From Agromyces tardus (GTDB lineage: Bacteria; Actinomycetota; Actinomycetes; Actinomycetales; Microbacteriaceae): 64,000 nucleotides of DNA. The notes beneath the pieces were generated by a model. That model was not told where the DNA came from and ran no database searches. It saw only the letters and a program-made list of their open reading frames with translations. Position 1 is the stretch's first letter, and each line of letters starts with the position of its first letter. Made by a program: the position numbers and the translations under genes. Shown in pieces: positions 24,061-59,081 of this stretch. The stretch covers positions 1 to 64,000 of the forward strand of contig NZ_RHHB01000014.1 of assembly GCF_003710805.1 (NCBI RefSeq), read 5' to 3'.

Positions 24061-24810
24061 ATGACCGCCAGCGCCCCCGGCTCCGCCGTCGGCGAGCGGG
24101 TGCGGGCGGAGGAGCGGGCGAGCGAGCTCGTGCCGGAGCCTGCCCGCGACCCACGGCGCGTGGCCCTCGGGGCGTTCCGGCTCGCGATCGCGGCGACCGA
24201 GGTGGTCGCCCTCATCGGCAACTTCACCTACGTGCTCGGCTTCCGCCTCTTCGCGACGGTGAACTTCTTCAGCTACTTCACCGTGCTGTCGGCCATGCTC
24301 GCCGTGGTCACGCTGCTCGTCGCCGCCTGGTACGCGATCCTGCGCCCACGGGACCCGGTGTTCCTCGGCGTCTTCCGCACGATGGTCACGGTCTACCTCG
24401 TGGTGTCGGGCATCGTGTTCGGCCTCATCGTGGCGCAGGCGTCGAGTGTCGACTACCGCGTCGACGTGCCGTGGTCGGACACGCTCCTGCACTTCGTCGT
24501 GCCGGCGCTCGCCCTCATCGCCTGGACGGTCGACGCCGTGATCGCCGTGAACCCGCCGGTGCCCTGGGCGACCGTCGGCTGGGTGCTCGTGATCCCGACG
24601 ATCTGGCTCGTCTACACGCTCCTGCGCGGCGCCGACGTGGGCTGGTACCCCTACTTCTTCCTCGATGAGACGCAGGTGGGCGGCTTCCCGGGCGTCATCG
24701 GCTACTGCGCCGTCGTGCTCGCGATCTTCGTGGCGGTCACCGCAGTGCTCGTGGCCGTGCACCGCGGGTTCGCCCGCAGGGCGGTGCGCCGAGCGGATGC
24801 CACGGCCTGA
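24061..24810 (+). CDS. Pr6Pr-family membrane protein, copy 1
   Basis: A 249-residue protein with six membrane helices and the Pr6Pr signatures NFFSYFTVLSAM, VPWSDTLLHFVVPALALIAW and a WYPYFFLDE segment near the last loop. Function is unknown; the family is distantly related to FAR-17a/AIG1-like proteins. A second member lies at 58308-59081. The ATG at 24061 starts after a short gap following the ABC operon; the first 35 residues are polar and cytoplasmic. Confidence 0.8.
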   Translation: MTASAPGSAVGERVRAEERASELVPEPARDPRRVALGAFRLAIAATEVVALIGNFTYVLGFRLFATVNFFSYFTVLSAMLAVVTLLVAAWYAILRPRDPVFLGVFRTMVTVYLVVSGIVFGLIVAQASSVDYRVDVPWSDTLLHFVVPALALIAWTVDAVIAVNPPVPWATVGWVLVIPTIWLVYTLLRGADVGWYPYFFLDETQVGGFPGVIGYCAVVLAIFVAVTAVLVAVHRGFARRAVRRADATA

Positions 24811-24868: not shown

Positions 24869-26413
24869 CTACGGCGTCGGCGTCGGAGTGGCGGACGGCG
24901 TCGGGATCGCCGGGGCGGGCGGCGCGAACGGCGCGAGCGCCGCGAGCACCTCCGCCTCGAAGTCGGCGTCGTTGAGCGTTTCGAGCCGCAGCGCCTGGTC
25001 GGCGGCGATGACGCCGACGAGCACCGAATCGGCGCCGGCCGAGGCCGGGTCGAGGTCGAGCCAGGCGGCGACCGTCGGCGCCTCGCCGACGACGGTGAGG
25101 ACGTTCGGCGCGGATGCCGGCGCGGGCGCTGCGACCGCGGCATCCGTCGCACCGCGCCAGAACGGCTCGTCGAATCGCAGCCAGACGAGGTCGACCACGC
25201 CCATGCCGAGCAGCGAGATCGCGCGCTGCTGCCGCAGCGGCAGCGGCGGATCGAACGCGATCGTGTCGGTCTTGAGCACGCCGAGCGATGCGGTGACCAC
25301 GACGCGGTCGGCGCGCAGCGACTCGCCGGTGTCGAGGCGCAGGCTCACCCGGTCGTCGCTGAGCACGATGTCGGTCACGGCGCTCGCGCCCGCGATGTCG
25401 AGGCCGTCGGAGAGCAGCTGGATCAGCCCCTTCCAGCCGTCGACCACGCGGGCGGTCGGCGCCCAGGCTCGGTCGGGGTCGACCTCGAGCGCGGAGACGT
25501 GCGTCGGTGCCGCGCCCGTCGCCGGTTCGACGCCGGTGGCGAGGGCGTGCACCAGCCACTCCTCGGGGCTCGCGCCCGAGGCATCCGGTTCGCTGGAGAG
25601 CGGCGCGATGCCCGAGCGGGTGAGCGCGGCCGCGAGCGAGACGTCCGACGGCTGCTGCACGGCCCAGGCCTGCGCGTCGCGGATCGCGTCCCAGCCGGTG
25701 GGGGGCACGCCGGCGAGCGACTCGCCGCCGACGGTGCGCACGCCGACCACGGGGACGAACGACTCGGTCGTGACGGAGGCGTCGCCGAGCACGCCGCGCA
25801 TCGAAGCGCCGTCGGAGACGAACGGACTGCCGAGCTCCACGGGCACGGGGAAGTTGTTGTCGGCGACGGTGCGCAGGCGCCCGCCGAGCCGCTCGGACGC
25901 CTCGATCACGACCACCTCGAAGCCCGCGTCGGTGAGGCTGCGCGCCGCGGCGAGCCCGGCGATGCCGGCCCCGACCACGGCGATGCGCTCGCCGGGCTCG
26001 GCGAGGTCGGCGATCACGCGGGCGGCGCGCAGGCCCTCGCCGTAGGCGCCGTGCACCGTTCCGGGCGCGTCGTCGGAGGTGGCCTCGCCCGCGATCACGA
26101 GGCGGTCGCGCACCGGCTCGCCGAGGATCTGGCGTTGGGTGTGATCGCTCCCGACCCCGTCGTAGCTGACCGCGCCCCGCACGAACGGATCGGCGCCCCA
26201 CCGCGAGCGGCGCATCGCCGTGGGCTGGGGCACCCCGGGTGGCGGGGGAGTGGACGGCGGGGCCGACGTGGTCGCGGGAGCGCTCGAGGGCGTCACGGTG
26301 GGTCGCGGCTCGTTCCAGGTGCACCCGGCGAGCGTCGCCGCGACGCCCGAGAGCGTGGCGACGAGGAAGGTGCGCCGCGGCAGTCCGCCGCCGGACGCCG
26401 CCCGTGAGTCCAT
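24869..26413 (-). CDS. Tat-exported FAD amine oxidase with circularly permuted domain order
   Basis: A 514-residue protein. The N-terminus has a twin-arginine motif (PRRTFLVA) and a lipobox LAGC (Cys 31), then a Ser/Thr/Pro linker to about residue 66. Residues 71-132 (RWGADPF, AVSY, RLVIAGEATS, GTVHGAYGEGLRAA) match the C-terminal FAD-binding block of monoamine oxidases. The N-terminal dinucleotide fold (IAVVGAGIAGLAAARSL, residues 144-160) comes after it, followed by the substrate domain, ending at LAALAPFA where normal family members continue into the RW..DPF block. It should oxidise amines outside the membrane if the permuted protein folds normally. Confidence 0.85.
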   Translation of the reverse strand: MDSRAASGGGLPRRTFLVATLSGVAATLAGCTWNEPRPTVTPSSAPATTSAPPSTPPPPGVPQPTAMRRSRWGADPFVRGAVSYDGVGSDHTQRQILGEPVRDRLVIAGEATSDDAPGTVHGAYGEGLRAARVIADLAEPGERIAVVGAGIAGLAAARSLTDAGFEVVVIEASERLGGRLRTVADNNFPVPVELGSPFVSDGASMRGVLGDASVTTESFVPVVGVRTVGGESLAGVPPTGWDAIRDAQAWAVQQPSDVSLAAALTRSGIAPLSSEPDASGASPEEWLVHALATGVEPATGAAPTHVSALEVDPDRAWAPTARVVDGWKGLIQLLSDGLDIAGASAVTDIVLSDDRVSLRLDTGESLRADRVVVTASLGVLKTDTIAFDPPLPLRQQRAISLLGMGVVDLVWLRFDEPFWRGATDAAVAAPAPASAPNVLTVVGEAPTVAAWLDLDPASAGADSVLVGVIAADQALRLETLNDADFEAEVLAALAPFAPPAPAIPTPSATPTPTP

Positions 26414-26449: not shown

Positions 26450-27655
26450 TCAGCCGGCGGGCGACCCGGCCGCCGCGCGGAAGGCGGCGGCGAACCGGGG
26501 CAGGCCCGCCTCGATGGTCTCCATCGTGGCGGTGAGCGAGATGCGGAAGAAGCCCGGCGTCTCGAACATGCGCCCGGGCAGCACGAGCACGCCCTCGCGG
26601 TCCAGCGCTCGCGTGAACTCGACATCGTCGTCGAGCGGCGACTCGGGGAAGAGGTAGAACGTCCCTTCGGGCAGGGCGACGCGGTAGCCGATGTCCCGCA
26701 GGGCGGCCACCATCACGTCGCGCTTGCGCTGGAAGAGCGGGAGGTCGAACGCGAGCGTCTCGAGCCGCGGCAACGCGTACTGCATCGACACGTTGGGGAA
26801 GAGCCATCCGCCCGCGATCTGCACGGTCTCGATCGCATCCCGGAAGGCCTTCCGGTCGGGCATCGTGGGAGGCACGGCGAGGTACCCGACGCGCTCGCCG
26901 GGAGACAGCAGCGTCTTGCCGTAGCTGTAGGCGAGGAAGCTCCACGGGTAGAACTCAACCGGGCTGCGGAAGCGCCGGCCGTCGAAGACGATGCGGTTGT
27001 AGGCCTCGTCGGAGATGAGGAAGATGCGGCGCCCATTCCGTGCCGACGCCTCCTCGAGGATCGCGGCGAGGCGGTCGAGCGTCGCTGGCGGATAGATCCG
27101 CCCGGTGGGGTTGTTCGGGCTGTTCACGATCACGATGCGCGTGCGCGGCGTGATGGCGGCCGCGATGGCGTCGAGGTCGAGGTCGAGCGTCTCCCGGTCG
27201 ATCGACACCTTCACCGGCACGAGTCCGGCCTCCAGGATGAGCGGCTCGTAGAGGAACCACGGCGGGAGGCTGTAGACGACCTCGTCGCCCGCGTCGCCGA
27301 CGATCTTCAGCGCGGTCGAGATCGCCGCGAAGCCGCCCGTGGTCAGGTGCACGTCGCCGACCTCGAAGGGAATGCCGAGGTGCCGGCGCAGCGACTCCGT
27401 CGCGGCCTCGATGGCCTTCGCGTCGCCGAAGTTGTACGCGAACCACAGCTCGTGCTGCGGCACCAGGGCGTCGCGGAGAATGTCGACGTACGCCTGCGAC
27501 GGCGGGTCGTGCGGATCGCCGAACGTGAAGTCGAGCACGCCGGGCTCGTGCCGTCGATGCTCGTAGCCCGAGAGCCGGTAGAACTCGTACAGCAACTGGA
27601 ACGGCGTCGCAGCGGCGACGGATGCGACTCGGTCGGAGGTGGATCGGTCGGCCAT
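26450..27655 (-). CDS. Class I/II pyridoxal-phosphate aminotransferase
   Basis: A 401-residue fold-type I aminotransferase of aspartate-aminotransferase type. It shows VNSPNNPTGRIYPP, ISDEAYNRIVFD with the PLP-ring Asp and Tyr, SYGKTLLSPGERVGYLAV with the Schiff-base Lys, and FFRISLTA with the carboxylate-binding Arg. The exact amino donor is not clear. ATG 27655 is preceded by GGGGGAG. It is read in the same direction as the class III aminotransferase upstream and separated from it by a hairpin. Confidence 0.85.
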   Translation of the reverse strand: MADRSTSDRVASVAAATPFQLLYEFYRLSGYEHRRHEPGVLDFTFGDPHDPPSQAYVDILRDALVPQHELWFAYNFGDAKAIEAATESLRRHLGIPFEVGDVHLTTGGFAAISTALKIVGDAGDEVVYSLPPWFLYEPLILEAGLVPVKVSIDRETLDLDLDAIAAAITPRTRIVIVNSPNNPTGRIYPPATLDRLAAILEEASARNGRRIFLISDEAYNRIVFDGRRFRSPVEFYPWSFLAYSYGKTLLSPGERVGYLAVPPTMPDRKAFRDAIETVQIAGGWLFPNVSMQYALPRLETLAFDLPLFQRKRDVMVAALRDIGYRVALPEGTFYLFPESPLDDDVEFTRALDREGVLVLPGRMFETPGFFRISLTATMETIEAGLPRFAAAFRAAAGSPAG

Positions 27656-27749: not shown

Positions 27750-29156
27750 TCAGGCCGCGAAGCCGTCGGCGACCGTGAGGGCCTCATCGATGATGTCGAG
27801 GCCGCGCACCAGTTCCTGCTCGGTGATGACGAGCGGCGGTGCCACGTGCATGCGGTTGAAGTGCACGAACGGCCAGAGGCCGGCCTGCTTGCAGGCGGCG
27901 GCGACGGCGGCCATCGGCGCGGCATCCGCCCCGCTCGCGTTGAACGGCACGAGGGGTTCGCGGGTCTCGCGGTCGCGTACGAGCTCGATCGCCCAGAAGA
28001 GGCCGAGCCCGCGCACGTCGCCGACCGACGGATGCGTCGCCGCGATCTCGCGCAGGCGCGGCTCGACGACGCGCTCGCCGAGGTCGCGCACGCGCTCGAG
28101 GATGCCGTCGCGCTCGAACACCTCGAACGTCGCGACGCCCGCGGCGCACGCGAGCGGGTGGCCCGAGTACGTGAGGCCGCCCATGAACGCGACGGTGTCG
28201 AAGTGCGACGCGATCCGCTGCGAGATCACCACGCCGCCGAGCGGCACGTACCCGGAGTTCACGCCCTTGGCGAAGGTGATGAGGTCGGGCACGACGCCGA
28301 AGTGGTTCACCGCGAACCACTCGCCGACGCGGCCGAAGCCCACCATGACCTCGTCGGCGATGTAGACGATGCCGTACTTGTCGGCGAGCGCTCGCACGCC
28401 CTGCAGGTAGCCGGGCGGGGGCACGAGCACGCCGTTCGTGCCCACGACGGTCTCGAGGATGATCGCCGCGACCGTGTTCGCGCCCTCGAGGGTGATGACC
28501 TGCTCGAGGTGGGCGAGCGCGCGCTCGGTCTCCTGCTCGGGGCTGTCGGAATGGAACGACGACCGGTAGGGGTACGGGCCGAGGAAGTGCGCGACGCTGC
28601 CGTCGCTCGGCTCGTTCGCCCAGCGGCGGGGATCGCCCGTGAGCGAGATCGCCGTGGCGGTGCCGCCGTGGTAGCTGCGGTACATCGACAGCACCTTGCG
28701 GCGGCCGGTGACGGCGCGGGCCATGCGCACGGCGTATTCGTTCGCGTCCGCCCCGCCGTTCGTGAAGAACACCTTGTCGAGGTCGCCGGGGGCCACCTCG
28801 GCGATGCGCCGGGCGAGCTCGCCGCGCACGTCGGAGGCCATCGACGGCTGGATCGTCGCGAGGCGGCCCGCCTGCTGCTGGATCGCCGCGACGAGGTCGG
28901 GGTGCTGGTGCCCGAGGTTGAGGTTCACGAGCTGGCTCGAGAAGTCGAGGAACGAGTTGCCCTGGTAGTCCCAGAACGTCGAGCCCTCGCCCGCGGCCAC
29001 GGGCAGCGGGTCGATGAGGGCCTGCGCGCTCCAGGAGTGGAAGACGTGGCTGCGGTCGTCGGCGCGCACCTGCGCCTCGGCGGCGGCATCGGGCAGCGGA
29101 TGCCGCGTGCCGTGCCGATCGGTGTACGTCGCCGTCTCGACGAGCGTGTCGGTCAT
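27750..29156 (-). CDS. Class III aminotransferase (omega-amino acid type)
   Basis: A 468-residue PLP enzyme. It has SRSYHGGT-like YRSYHGGTATAIS, the IADEVMVGFGRVGEWF segment with the PLP Asp, and LITFAKGVNSGYVPLGGV with the Schiff-base Lys. This group includes beta-alanine, GABA and taurine:pyruvate aminotransferases. Beside an MmsA-type semialdehyde dehydrogenase and PucR regulator, a beta-alanine or GABA-like substrate that yields a semialdehyde is likely. The ATG is preceded by GAAAGGA. Confidence 0.87.
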   Translation of the reverse strand: MTDTLVETATYTDRHGTRHPLPDAAAEAQVRADDRSHVFHSWSAQALIDPLPVAAGEGSTFWDYQGNSFLDFSSQLVNLNLGHQHPDLVAAIQQQAGRLATIQPSMASDVRGELARRIAEVAPGDLDKVFFTNGGADANEYAVRMARAVTGRRKVLSMYRSYHGGTATAISLTGDPRRWANEPSDGSVAHFLGPYPYRSSFHSDSPEQETERALAHLEQVITLEGANTVAAIILETVVGTNGVLVPPPGYLQGVRALADKYGIVYIADEVMVGFGRVGEWFAVNHFGVVPDLITFAKGVNSGYVPLGGVVISQRIASHFDTVAFMGGLTYSGHPLACAAGVATFEVFERDGILERVRDLGERVVEPRLREIAATHPSVGDVRGLGLFWAIELVRDRETREPLVPFNASGADAAPMAAVAAACKQAGLWPFVHFNRMHVAPPLVITEQELVRGLDIIDEALTVADGFAA

Positions 29157-29175: not shown

Positions 29176-29297
29176 CCGGTCGAGTAGCGGCGGAGCCGCC
29201 TATCGAGACCCGGTCGTCGCTGGTCTCGATACGCGCTGCGCGCTTCTCGACCGGCGGGATGGTCTCGATACGCGCTGCGCGCTTCTCGACCGGCGGG
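29176..29297. repeat. Hairpin element with an extra right arm
   Basis: One left arm (29176-29210) and two tandem right arms (29222-29254 and 29260-29297), each reading GGTCTCGATACGCGCTGCGC..CTCGACCGGCGGG. It fills the gap between mmsA and the aminotransferase gene. Confidence 0.85.
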
Positions 29298-29301
29298 ATG
29301 A

Positions 29302-30804
29302 CTAGTGGTTCGAGGGGAAGCCGAGGTTGATCTGCGACTCGCTCGGCTCGGGCCAGCGCGAGGTCACGACCTTCGAGCGGGTGTAGAAGTGCACCGACTC
29401 GGGGCCGTAGATGTGCGAGTCGCCGAAGAGCGAGTTCTTCCAGCCGCCGAACGAGTACGCGCCGATCGGCACGGGGATCGGCACGTTCACGCCGACCATG
29501 CCGACCTCGATGTCGAACTCGAAGCGGCGCGCGGTGCCGCCGTCGCGCGTGAAGATCGCGACGCCGTTCGCGAAGCGGCTCGCGTTGATGAGCTCGACCG
29601 CCTCCTCGTACGACTCGACGCGCACGACCGAGAGCACCGGGCCGAAGATCTCGTCCTCGTACACCTTCATGCCGGGCTGCACGTGGTCGACGAGCGAGAC
29701 GCCCACGAAGAAGCCGTCGTTGTCGAACTGCTGCTGCGTGCCGTCGACGACGACCGTGGCGCCCTCGGCCGCGGCGTTCGTGACGTACGAGGCGACCTTG
29801 TCGCGGTGCTCGCGCGTGATGAGGGGGCCCATCTCGCTCGAGGGGTCGGTGCCGTCGCCGATCTTCAGCGCGCCCATGCGCGAGCGCACGGCCTCGACGA
29901 GGTCGTCGGCCACGTCGCCCACGGCGACGAGCACCGACACGGCCATGCAGCGCTCGCCGGCCGAGCCGTATGCGGCCGACACCGCGGCATCCGCTGCGCC
30001 CTCGAGGTCGGCGTCGGGCATGACGACCATGTGGTTCTTCGCGCCGCCGAGCGCCTGGACGCGCTTGCCGTTGGCTGAGGCGCGCTCGTAGATCGAGCGG
30101 GCGATCGGGGTGGAGCCGACGAACGAGATCGCGCGCACGTCGGGCGAGTCGAGGATCGCGTCGACCGCGACCTTGTCGCCGTTGACGACGTTGAGCACGC
30201 CGTCGGGGAGCCCGGCCTCCTGGAAGAGCTTCGCGAGGAAGAGCGAGGCGCTCGGGTCCTTCTCGGACGGCTTCAGCACGACCGTGTTGCCGCACGCGAT
30301 CGCCGAGGCGACCATCCACAGCGGCACCATGACGGGGAAGTTGAACGGCGTGATCGCCCCGACGACGCCCACGGGCTGCTTCACCGAGTGCACGTCGACG
30401 CCGCGCGCGACCTGCTCCGAGCGCTCGCCCTTCAGCAGGTGCACGAGGCCGGCGGCGAACTCGATGTTCTCGATGCCGCGCGAGATCTCGCCCTTGGCGT
30501 CGGAGATGACCTTGCCGTGCTCGTTCGTGAGGATCTCGGCGAGCTCGTCCTGGCGCTCGACGAGCAGGTGACGCAGCTTGAAGAACACGTCGGCGCGCTT
30601 CACGAGCCCGGTCGCGCGCCAGCCCGGCAGCGCGGCCTTGGCCGTGGCGATCGCGGCGTCGACCTCCTCGGTCGAGGCGAAGGCGACCTCGCGGGCGACC
30701 TCGCCCGTGGCGGGGTTGTACACGGGACCGGTGCGGTCGGCGCTGCCGACCTCCTGTCCGCCGACGAAGTGTCGGACGAGGGTGCGGGTGAGGGTGTCGC
30801 TCAT
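29302..30804 (-). CDS. mmsA: CoA-acylating methylmalonate-semialdehyde dehydrogenase type
   Basis: A 500-residue dehydrogenase. It has PFNFPVMVPLWM, the ALGGAKNHMVVMPDADLEGA segment and GSAGERCMAVSV with the catalytic Cys, all hallmarks of MmsA/IolA, which oxidise methylmalonate or malonate semialdehyde to propionyl- or acetyl-CoA. It follows the class III aminotransferase on the same strand downstream, so a transaminase/dehydrogenase pathway for beta-alanine or a related omega-amino acid is likely. It is divergent from pucR. Confidence 0.9.
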   Translation of the reverse strand: MSDTLTRTLVRHFVGGQEVGSADRTGPVYNPATGEVAREVAFASTEEVDAAIATAKAALPGWRATGLVKRADVFFKLRHLLVERQDELAEILTNEHGKVISDAKGEISRGIENIEFAAGLVHLLKGERSEQVARGVDVHSVKQPVGVVGAITPFNFPVMVPLWMVASAIACGNTVVLKPSEKDPSASLFLAKLFQEAGLPDGVLNVVNGDKVAVDAILDSPDVRAISFVGSTPIARSIYERASANGKRVQALGGAKNHMVVMPDADLEGAADAAVSAAYGSAGERCMAVSVLVAVGDVADDLVEAVRSRMGALKIGDGTDPSSEMGPLITREHRDKVASYVTNAAAEGATVVVDGTQQQFDNDGFFVGVSLVDHVQPGMKVYEDEIFGPVLSVVRVESYEEAVELINASRFANGVAIFTRDGGTARRFEFDIEVGMVGVNVPIPVPIGAYSFGGWKNSLFGDSHIYGPESVHFYTRSKVVTSRWPEPSESQINLGFPSNH

Positions 30805-58209: not shown

Positions 58210-58307
58210 ACGCTCGCCCTTCCGCCGTGGTCCCCTCATTCTGTTACACGGAGGTAGTCTGCGTTCACGTGCGTCGCACGGGCGCGCCGACCGGTCTGGG
58301 GGAATCG

Positions 58308-59081
58308 ATGCGGGTGTTGTTCGGGATACTGCGGCTGCTCGCGGCAGCGGCGATCATCACGGCCATCGCCGGGCAGTTCGCGGTGAGCTGGTCGATGGTG
58401 CCGGACCGCGCCTTCTTCTTCGTGAACTTCTTCAGCTACTTCACGATCCTCTCGAATGCGCTCTCGGCGCTGCTGATGCTCGTCGGAGCCTGGATCGCCT
58501 TCTCGCGGCCGACCGACCCCTCGTGGTTCAACCTGCTGCGCGCCTGCACCGTCACCTACATGGCCACGACCTTCGTCGTGTACAACATGCTGCTGCGCGA
58601 GATCTCGCTCGACCAGGCCACGACCGTGCCGTGGTCGAACGAGATCCTGCACGTGTGGGCGCCGCTGTACCTCGTCGCCGACTGGGTGCTCGCGCCGGGG
58701 CGCCACCCGATCGCGTGGCGGCGCCTCTGGACGATCGCAGTGTTCCCGATCGCCTGGGTCGTGTACTCGCTCATCCGGGGCGTGCTCGTCGACTGGTACC
58801 CCTATCCGTTCCTCAATCCGGCGCAGGAGGCCGGCTACGGCGGCGTCGCCGTGTACGTCATCGCGATCGCGGCGTTCATCCTGCTCGTCGGCGCCGGCAT
58901 CATCGCGCTGAGCCGCACGCCGTGGCCCCACGAGATCCCCGAACCGACGAGGGCCGGGCGCGCCGCGGCGACGGCGGGTTCACCGTCGCAGCCGGTCGGG
59001 GCCGTCGGGCCGGCCGAGACCGCCGGGCCGGTCGAGACCGCCGGGCCGGTCGGGGCCGTCGGGACGCAGCCCGCCGACTGA
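58308..59081 (+). CDS. Pr6Pr-family membrane protein, copy 2
   Basis: A 257-residue six-helix protein, paralogous to the one at 24061-24810. Both have NFFSYFTILSNALSAL-like, VPWSNEILHVWAPLYLV-like and DWYPYPFLNP-like stretches. Function is unknown. The C-terminal tail has an imperfect repeat of GPAETAGPVETAGPVGAVG type. GGGGGAA precedes the ATG. Confidence 0.8.
   Translation: MRVLFGILRLLAAAAIITAIAGQFAVSWSMVPDRAFFFVNFFSYFTILSNALSALLMLVGAWIAFSRPTDPSWFNLLRACTVTYMATTFVVYNMLLREISLDQATTVPWSNEILHVWAPLYLVADWVLAPGRHPIAWRRLWTIAVFPIAWVVYSLIRGVLVDWYPYPFLNPAQEAGYGGVAVYVIAIAAFILLVGAGIIALSRTPWPHEIPEPTRAGRAAATAGSPSQPVGAVGPAETAGPVETAGPVGAVGTQPAD

Follow-up and report, generated by a model that had tools for sequence, protein, structure and literature searches.

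The gene, its export signal and the order of its blocks

In the window, by which we mean the whole stretch of 64,000 nucleotides of Agromyces tardus that was analysed, the minus strand carries an open reading frame of 514 codons with an ATG start. It is intact, in agreement with the preliminary description of this gene. The features of the encoded protein and the genes around it are the following:

24869-26413, minus strand: circularly permuted PF01593 flavoenzyme, 514 aa, a lipoprotein by motif (open reading frame and Pfam)
26321-26413, minus strand: Tat-type signal with lipobox, residues 1-31, with RR at 13-14 and Cys31 (motif read by eye; invariant in the 41-row alignment)
26237-26320, minus strand: linker rich in Pro, Thr and Ser, residues 32-59 (from the sequence; similar in relatives)
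26012-26236, minus strand: C-terminal FAD block of PF01593 (profile positions 368-442) in first position, residues 60-134 (E 2.3e-16)
25991-26011, minus strand: new junction from old C-terminus to old N-terminus, residues 135-141 (profiles A1 and A6)
24893-25990, minus strand: old N-terminal part with GxGxxG fold, substrate region and middle FAD block, residues 142-507 (Pfam)
25187-25189, minus strand: Leu409, where PF01593 oxidases have their flavin-N5 lysine (aligned with spermine oxidase and LSD2)
24061-24810, plus strand: Pr6Pr-family membrane protein, convergent, with 58 bp between the stop codons (NF038065, E 2e-31)
26450-27655, minus strand: PLP aminotransferase (PRK06836-like), directly upstream on the same strand (NCBIfam)
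27750-29156, minus strand: class III aminotransferase (PRK06062 type), same strand (NCBIfam)
29302-30804, minus strand: aldehyde dehydrogenase (MMSDH type), same strand (NCBIfam)

Against Pfam-A the whole protein matched Amino_oxidase (PF01593) with 190.8 bits, the gathering score being 19.8, and the whole profile was covered; a plain family name obtained in this way from domain searches hides the rearrangement. When the protein was cut at the junction, residues 151-507 corresponded to positions 1-373 of PF01593 (E 2.1e-40) and residues 60-134, searched as a separate piece, to positions 368-442 of 443 (E 2.3e-16). A second, normal C-terminal FAD block, named beforehand as evidence to the contrary, was looked for with Pfam on the separate pieces and is absent from the 514 residues. 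The motifs of the FAD block are RWGADPF at 71-77, AGEAT at 108-112 and GTVHGAY at 118-124, and the GxGxxG glycines are residues 148, 150 and 153, inside the intervals first proposed for them (71-132 for the block and 147-153 for GxGxxG).

By sequence, the best solved relatives are spermine oxidase, polyamine oxidase and LSD2 (PDB 7oxl, 1b37 and 4gu0), with which the protein shares the GxGxxG, the middle FAD block and the RW..DPF/AGE.T/GA..G block, all of them present. It differs from these enzymes in its swapped blocks, in being a lipoprotein by motif and in the Leu at the place of the N5 lysine. Alignment with human spermine oxidase gave three stretches in permuted order, in which residues 140-199 of the query fell on chain residues 3-61, residues 360-488 on 261-390 and residues 58-134 on 402-480; the same permuted pattern was obtained with LSD2. 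Since the pieces match PF01593, spermine oxidase and LSD2 in permuted order, the order of the blocks is swapped and the domain is complete. The standard order of PF01593, with the GxGxxG fold N-terminal and the FAD block C-terminal, is reversed in the window protein, which, judged by these alignments, is a homologous but permuted variant of the family.

The break point was controlled by restoring the standard block order of 58 permuted proteins with a script, which gave a profile of 425 positions, and by matching to it the standard proteins of 33 loci (35 candidates, with the fragments L124 and L135 left out). Thirty-two of the 33 matched the swapped-back profile in a single stretch, from position 1-4 to position 423-424 of 425, and the remaining one, L126, matched in two stretches, in order. 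No residues are missing or duplicated at the break point. Standard-order PF01593 paralogues in related genomes (e.g., L078-L089) are alike in their end-to-end match to the block-swapped profile, and they differ in their standard order and in the lysine found in 31 of the 33 standard rows. The Pfam pieces, the spermine oxidase alignment and this profile all bear out the permuted order that had been claimed. An AlphaFold model of the window protein, made from an 11-row alignment (A5), was poor, with a mean pLDDT of 44.1 and a pTM of 0.41, and gave no information on the fold.

The N-terminus has an RR motif followed by a lipobox cysteine (R13, R14 and C31), which by motif is that of a Tat-exported lipoprotein; both the arginine pair and the cysteine are invariant in the 41 aligned members, and the Tat lipoprotein signal first described is upheld at the level of the motif.

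Spread and origin of the permuted order

A junction-spanning match was found in 34 of the 36 genus-mates searched (in one of them, G011, the match begins only at residue 85). The others are G027, whose matches are fragments on two contigs, none of them crossing the junction, and G014, an assembly of about 840 contigs with short, weak matches only. At the level of the family, 39 of 120 genomes, the window's own included, matched at E 1e-20 or better, and 36 of these matches span the junction; in G116, G163 and G090 the match starts only at residue 129-144. From 58 family loci, 56 orthologues of 56 genomes were aligned, leaving out L048, which fell below the 37% identity cut, and L012, in which part of the first block is missing. 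All 56 align through the junction as single open frames. In the 41-row alignment R13, R14, C31, W72, G109, E110, G148, G150, G153, E171, G177, G178 and R179 are invariant and the substrate region is variable; 55 of the 56 orthologues have W419, and as many have W451.

For the search beyond the family we used a junction profile, A1, covering residues 61-205, and took an end-to-end match to the model as the mark of a permuted protein; A1 and the broader profile A6 both run through the region of residues 135-141 in permuted proteins. At the level of the order (A1, 297 genomes) end-to-end matches were present in 18 genomes among the matches listed, 14 of them belonging to the window's family and the remaining 4 to two others. 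At the level of the class (A1, 345 genomes) there were 24, 12 of them outside the window's family, and in addition a junction match in G477 that is cut short in an open frame of 127 aa. At the level of the phylum (A6, 346 genomes) there were 10 among the matches listed, 5 of them outside the class. Partial matches reading through stop codons were excluded from these counts (G505 and G712 in the class; G572, G777, G1018 and G1026 in the phylum). The other matches listed cover one half or part of the junction model, as standard proteins do. Among the best 60 of 340 matched PDB chains the best stretch was confined to one half of the junction profile. On plasmids, the whole-protein query retrieved 8 records and the junction piece 6, none of them covered to 80%, and the matches listed for the junction piece all lay in its first half. 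A scan of genome contigs gave one relative, in Microbacterium luticocti, in standard order. The breakpoint was compared in 56 family members and in 20 proteins from outside the family, and is alike in them.

Permuted homologues, which the preliminary description had proposed to search for, thus occur in the genus and the family and, within the phylum, also in families, orders and classes other than those of the window. The rearrangement is real, because it is common to many related species. An assembly error, a frame slip or a fusion of two gene fragments could imitate a permutation in one genome, and it had been pointed out that a standard order in close homologues would indicate such a misassembly; the close homologues keep the permuted order, which recurs as single open frames in many genera and several families, in genomes independent of one another, and nothing in favour of an artefact was seen. 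The junction-spanning matches in the genus, the family and beyond exclude misassembly, and we consider an artefact of this kind hardly conceivable. The protein at 24869-26413 is almost certainly a natural circular permutation within the flavin amine oxidase superfamily. Among the matches listed in a literature search that covered subscription journals thinly, none reports that a protein of this family is naturally permuted, so the observation is new as far as the literature was searched. A natural permutation of such a large and well-studied flavoenzyme fold bears on which breaks are tolerated and on why evolution would choose this one.

A tree was calculated with 58 permuted proteins (38 members of the family and 20 from outside it) and the 33 standard proteins. 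The 38 family members formed one clade together with L112, L115 and L117, which belong to other classes, with an SH-aLRT value of 100. The quick tree requires 4 changes of order. A tree holding all the permuted proteins together had a log-likelihood 3.18 higher and was not rejected (p-AU 0.537), so a single origin of the permutation is allowed and is probable. In the alignments meant for structure prediction, MAFFT misplaced the start of the N-terminal pieces each time that 1 or 3 distant proteins from viral contigs were included.

Taking into account the N-termini of the permuted proteins from outside the family, read by eye, apparent Tat lipoprotein starts are seen in L091, L100, L113, L115, L116 and L117, and the lipobox end alone within the stretch read in L112; Tat-like starts without Cys are seen in L090 and L093-L099, and no clear signal in L074-L077 and L092. 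A tandem-gene precursor of the permutation was considered in G505 and rejected: its junction match consists of the start of one standard-order gene plus read-through of the preceding stop, and the next upstream amine oxidase gene ends about 1 kb away. The standard-order PF01593 protein of this genome (L121), about 1 kb downstream of the other amine oxidase gene, has a Tat-like start, and from it exported relatives in standard order seem to exist too.

Neighbouring genes

The Pr6Pr gene lies downstream of the flavoenzyme gene and on the opposite strand in 57 of the 58 family loci (1.5 kb flanks). The exception, L040, is a shortened stretch of 2939 bases, and the best Pr6Pr of that genome is at the start of another contig. 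The 56 pairs that were measured are all convergent and 43 of them overlap at the 3' ends, with a median overlap of about 98 bp and a commonest one of 104 bp; the other 13 have no overlap, three of them being 793-1093 bp apart. In wider stretches Pr6Pr was near the permuted gene in 15/15 family loci and in 0/5 outside the family. Pr6Pr relatives are common in the family, being present in 101 of its 120 genomes, and the special feature is therefore their placement.

It is quite possible, if on the whole doubtful, that this linkage is mechanical and not functional, because genes that often overlap at their 3' ends are hard to part by rearrangement. The 43 overlapping pairs, with their commonest overlap of 104 bp, fit such an explanation. 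Against it, the two genes stay together also in the 13 pairs without overlap, even where 793-1093 bp separate them, and high-identity matches to the other neighbours tested from the window were confined to the genus. Part of the linkage may be due to nothing more than the overlap. A search between the two convergent genes for a terminator-like site gave none.

By NF038065 the convergent neighbour is a clear member of the Pr6Pr family, and the window protein (24061-24810) had no Pfam match. The near-invariant Pr6Pr residues include T74, H144, R189 and the stretch WYPYFFLD; a role as a cytochrome b is unlikely, since only one His is near-invariant. With PF04750 (FAR-17a/AIG1) a weak match was obtained in 1 of 29 members (E 0.018) and none in the window protein, and in one member PF04143 outscored PF04750 (E 0.003). 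We take the resemblance to the FAR-17a/AIG1 hydrolases as a possible lead. The name Pr6Pr was not found in the literature searched, and the conserved, often overlapping gene beside the flavoenzyme gives a first handle on this membrane family. The window holds a second Pr6Pr copy (58227-59081, plus strand), 35% identical to the first and about 32 kb from the flavoenzyme, and L033, L034 and L052 have a further Pr6Pr gene next to the permuted flavoenzyme, upstream of it.

On the other side of the flavoenzyme gene, the PRK06836-like aminotransferase adjoins it in few genus-mates (L011 and L015), 26 of 30 genus loci have the class III aminotransferase at most 1.5 kb away, and 6 of 7 genus stretches have the aldehyde dehydrogenase nearby. 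Within the genus these metabolic genes of the same strand fit amine catabolism; they are not kept in the other genera looked at. Between the class III aminotransferase and the aldehyde dehydrogenase, at 29222-29299, there are two direct, adjacent copies of the 39-base unit GGTCTCGATACGCGCTGCGCGCTTCTCGACCGGCGGGAT, which may be a dispersed repeat.

The flavin-N5 lysine position and the proposed function

In the alignments Leu409 falls on the K of DKIFLEF in spermine oxidase and on the K of EKIALQF in LSD2, which we take to be the lysine near flavin N5. The 56 orthologues have at this position T (15), V (13), L (10), K (5), R (5), S (4), Q (3) and A (1). Of the rows on the tree, 31 of the 33 standard ones carry K (the others have R and H), as do 19 of the 20 permuted ones from outside the family (the other has R); in the family K stands in 5 of the 38 rows, Gln in 3 and Thr, Val, Leu, Ser, Arg or Ala in the other 30. 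The tree needs 8 changes between these states. Since the lysine is found in the standard rows and in the permuted rows outside the family and is rare within it, its loss came after the permutation, and this loss is mainly the trait of one lineage. That an O2-promoting lysine is lost in one lineage and kept in the neighbouring ones makes a natural experiment on the switch between oxidase and dehydrogenase. Its absence from 33 of the 38 family members and its presence in 19 of the 20 permuted proteins elsewhere suggest that the family proteins may be dehydrogenases.

In MAO A, according to the part of PMC8009472 that was available, the K305M variant is normally reduced by substrate, is slowly reoxidised by O2 and can be reoxidised by quinones, and its activity in aerobic assays is not raised by quinones; K305M and K305S lower kcat about 200- and 100-fold, K305R is inactive and K305Q is as active as the wild type. 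NicA2 and Pnao are exported family members that work as dehydrogenases using cytochrome c although their lysine is kept, and the basis of the oxidase/dehydrogenase switch is termed a mystery (PMC9396064, available in part). Relatives of NctX are predicted lipoproteins (PMC12272882, likewise in part). The residue alone is thus not decisive for O2 reactivity, since NicA2 and Pnao are dehydrogenases with the lysine and K305Q is fully active. Moreover, as quinones do not raise the aerobic activity of K305M and K305R is inactive, loss of the lysine can also mean loss of function. NicA2, Pnao and NctX are exported, as the motifs predict for the window protein, and they use, or are thought to use, cytochrome c and not O2. 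They differ in that the available parts of these sources describe the usual family fold and mention no permutation; NicA2 and Pnao, moreover, have the lysine, and a cytochrome c gene lies in their operon. Among the seven neighbours of the permuted gene NCBIfam called no cytochrome gene, one of these neighbours being without any match.

The explanation that we favour overall, and hold to be reasonably probable, is that of a permuted flavoenzyme, exported by Tat and lipid-anchored, acting as a dehydrogenase and delivering its electrons to an acceptor in the membrane. After Tat export, the lipid anchor and the flexible linker would hold the enzyme on the outer face of the cytoplasmic membrane. 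The fold would be as in the standard relatives, with the old C-terminal block, now first, and the GxGxxG fold behind it making up the complete FAD site; the FAD-binding fold is very probably preserved, because the FAD motifs (G109, E110, G148, G150, G153, E171 and G177-R179) are invariant in the 41 rows. The substrate, presumably an amine or an amine-like compound, would be oxidised by the flavin. In an enzyme without the lysine the reduced flavin would be slow with O2 and for this reason the protein would work as a dehydrogenase, its electrons going to a membrane acceptor such as menaquinone or a cytochrome. For the window protein itself we would give this role of membrane-tethered dehydrogenase, which is argued from the precedents of MAO A K305M, NicA2/Pnao and NctX, an even chance.

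It is unlikely, in our opinion, that the permuted protein is an ordinary oxidase, acting on an amine outside the cell with production of H2O2, another residue or water taking the role of the lysine. Its PF01593 membership and the spermine/polyamine oxidases and LSD2 as best solved relatives agree with such an activity, as do the 5 family rows with Lys and the 3 with Gln, the residue of the fully active K305Q. However, the window protein has Leu here, the remaining 30 of the 38 rows carry neither Lys nor Gln (Thr, Val, Leu, Ser, Arg or Ala), and the MAO A variants K305M, K305S and K305R are severely impaired or inactive, as cited above. From the initial label of FAD amine oxidase we therefore retain the family membership and not the word oxidase, since the window protein and most of its nearest relatives are without the O2 lysine. 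The replacement of that lysine by many different residues, the variable substrate region and the conserved membrane-protein neighbour could be read as signs of a degenerate, non-catalytic FAD-binding lipoprotein, serving the adjoining membrane protein as a scaffold or a redox sensor. We give this little credence, considering that the FAD motifs are invariant in 41 rows, that W419 and W451 are each almost always kept and that the frames are open in many genera.

A broader extension of the dehydrogenase proposal is improbable as a whole: that the permuted flavoproteins are a so far undescribed, phylum-wide clade with the anchor at a new point of the fold, of which one family is an O2-inert dehydrogenase paired with Pr6Pr. 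If it were true, the permutation would shift the lipid anchor and linker on the fold and change how the active site faces the membrane, and the enzyme and its overlapping convergent Pr6Pr would together make up an extracytoplasmic module of a new type, for redox chemistry or lipid modification.

IMG/VR contigs of 41-75 kb classed as viral (L103-L106) also carry amine oxidases that are in standard order and have the lysine.
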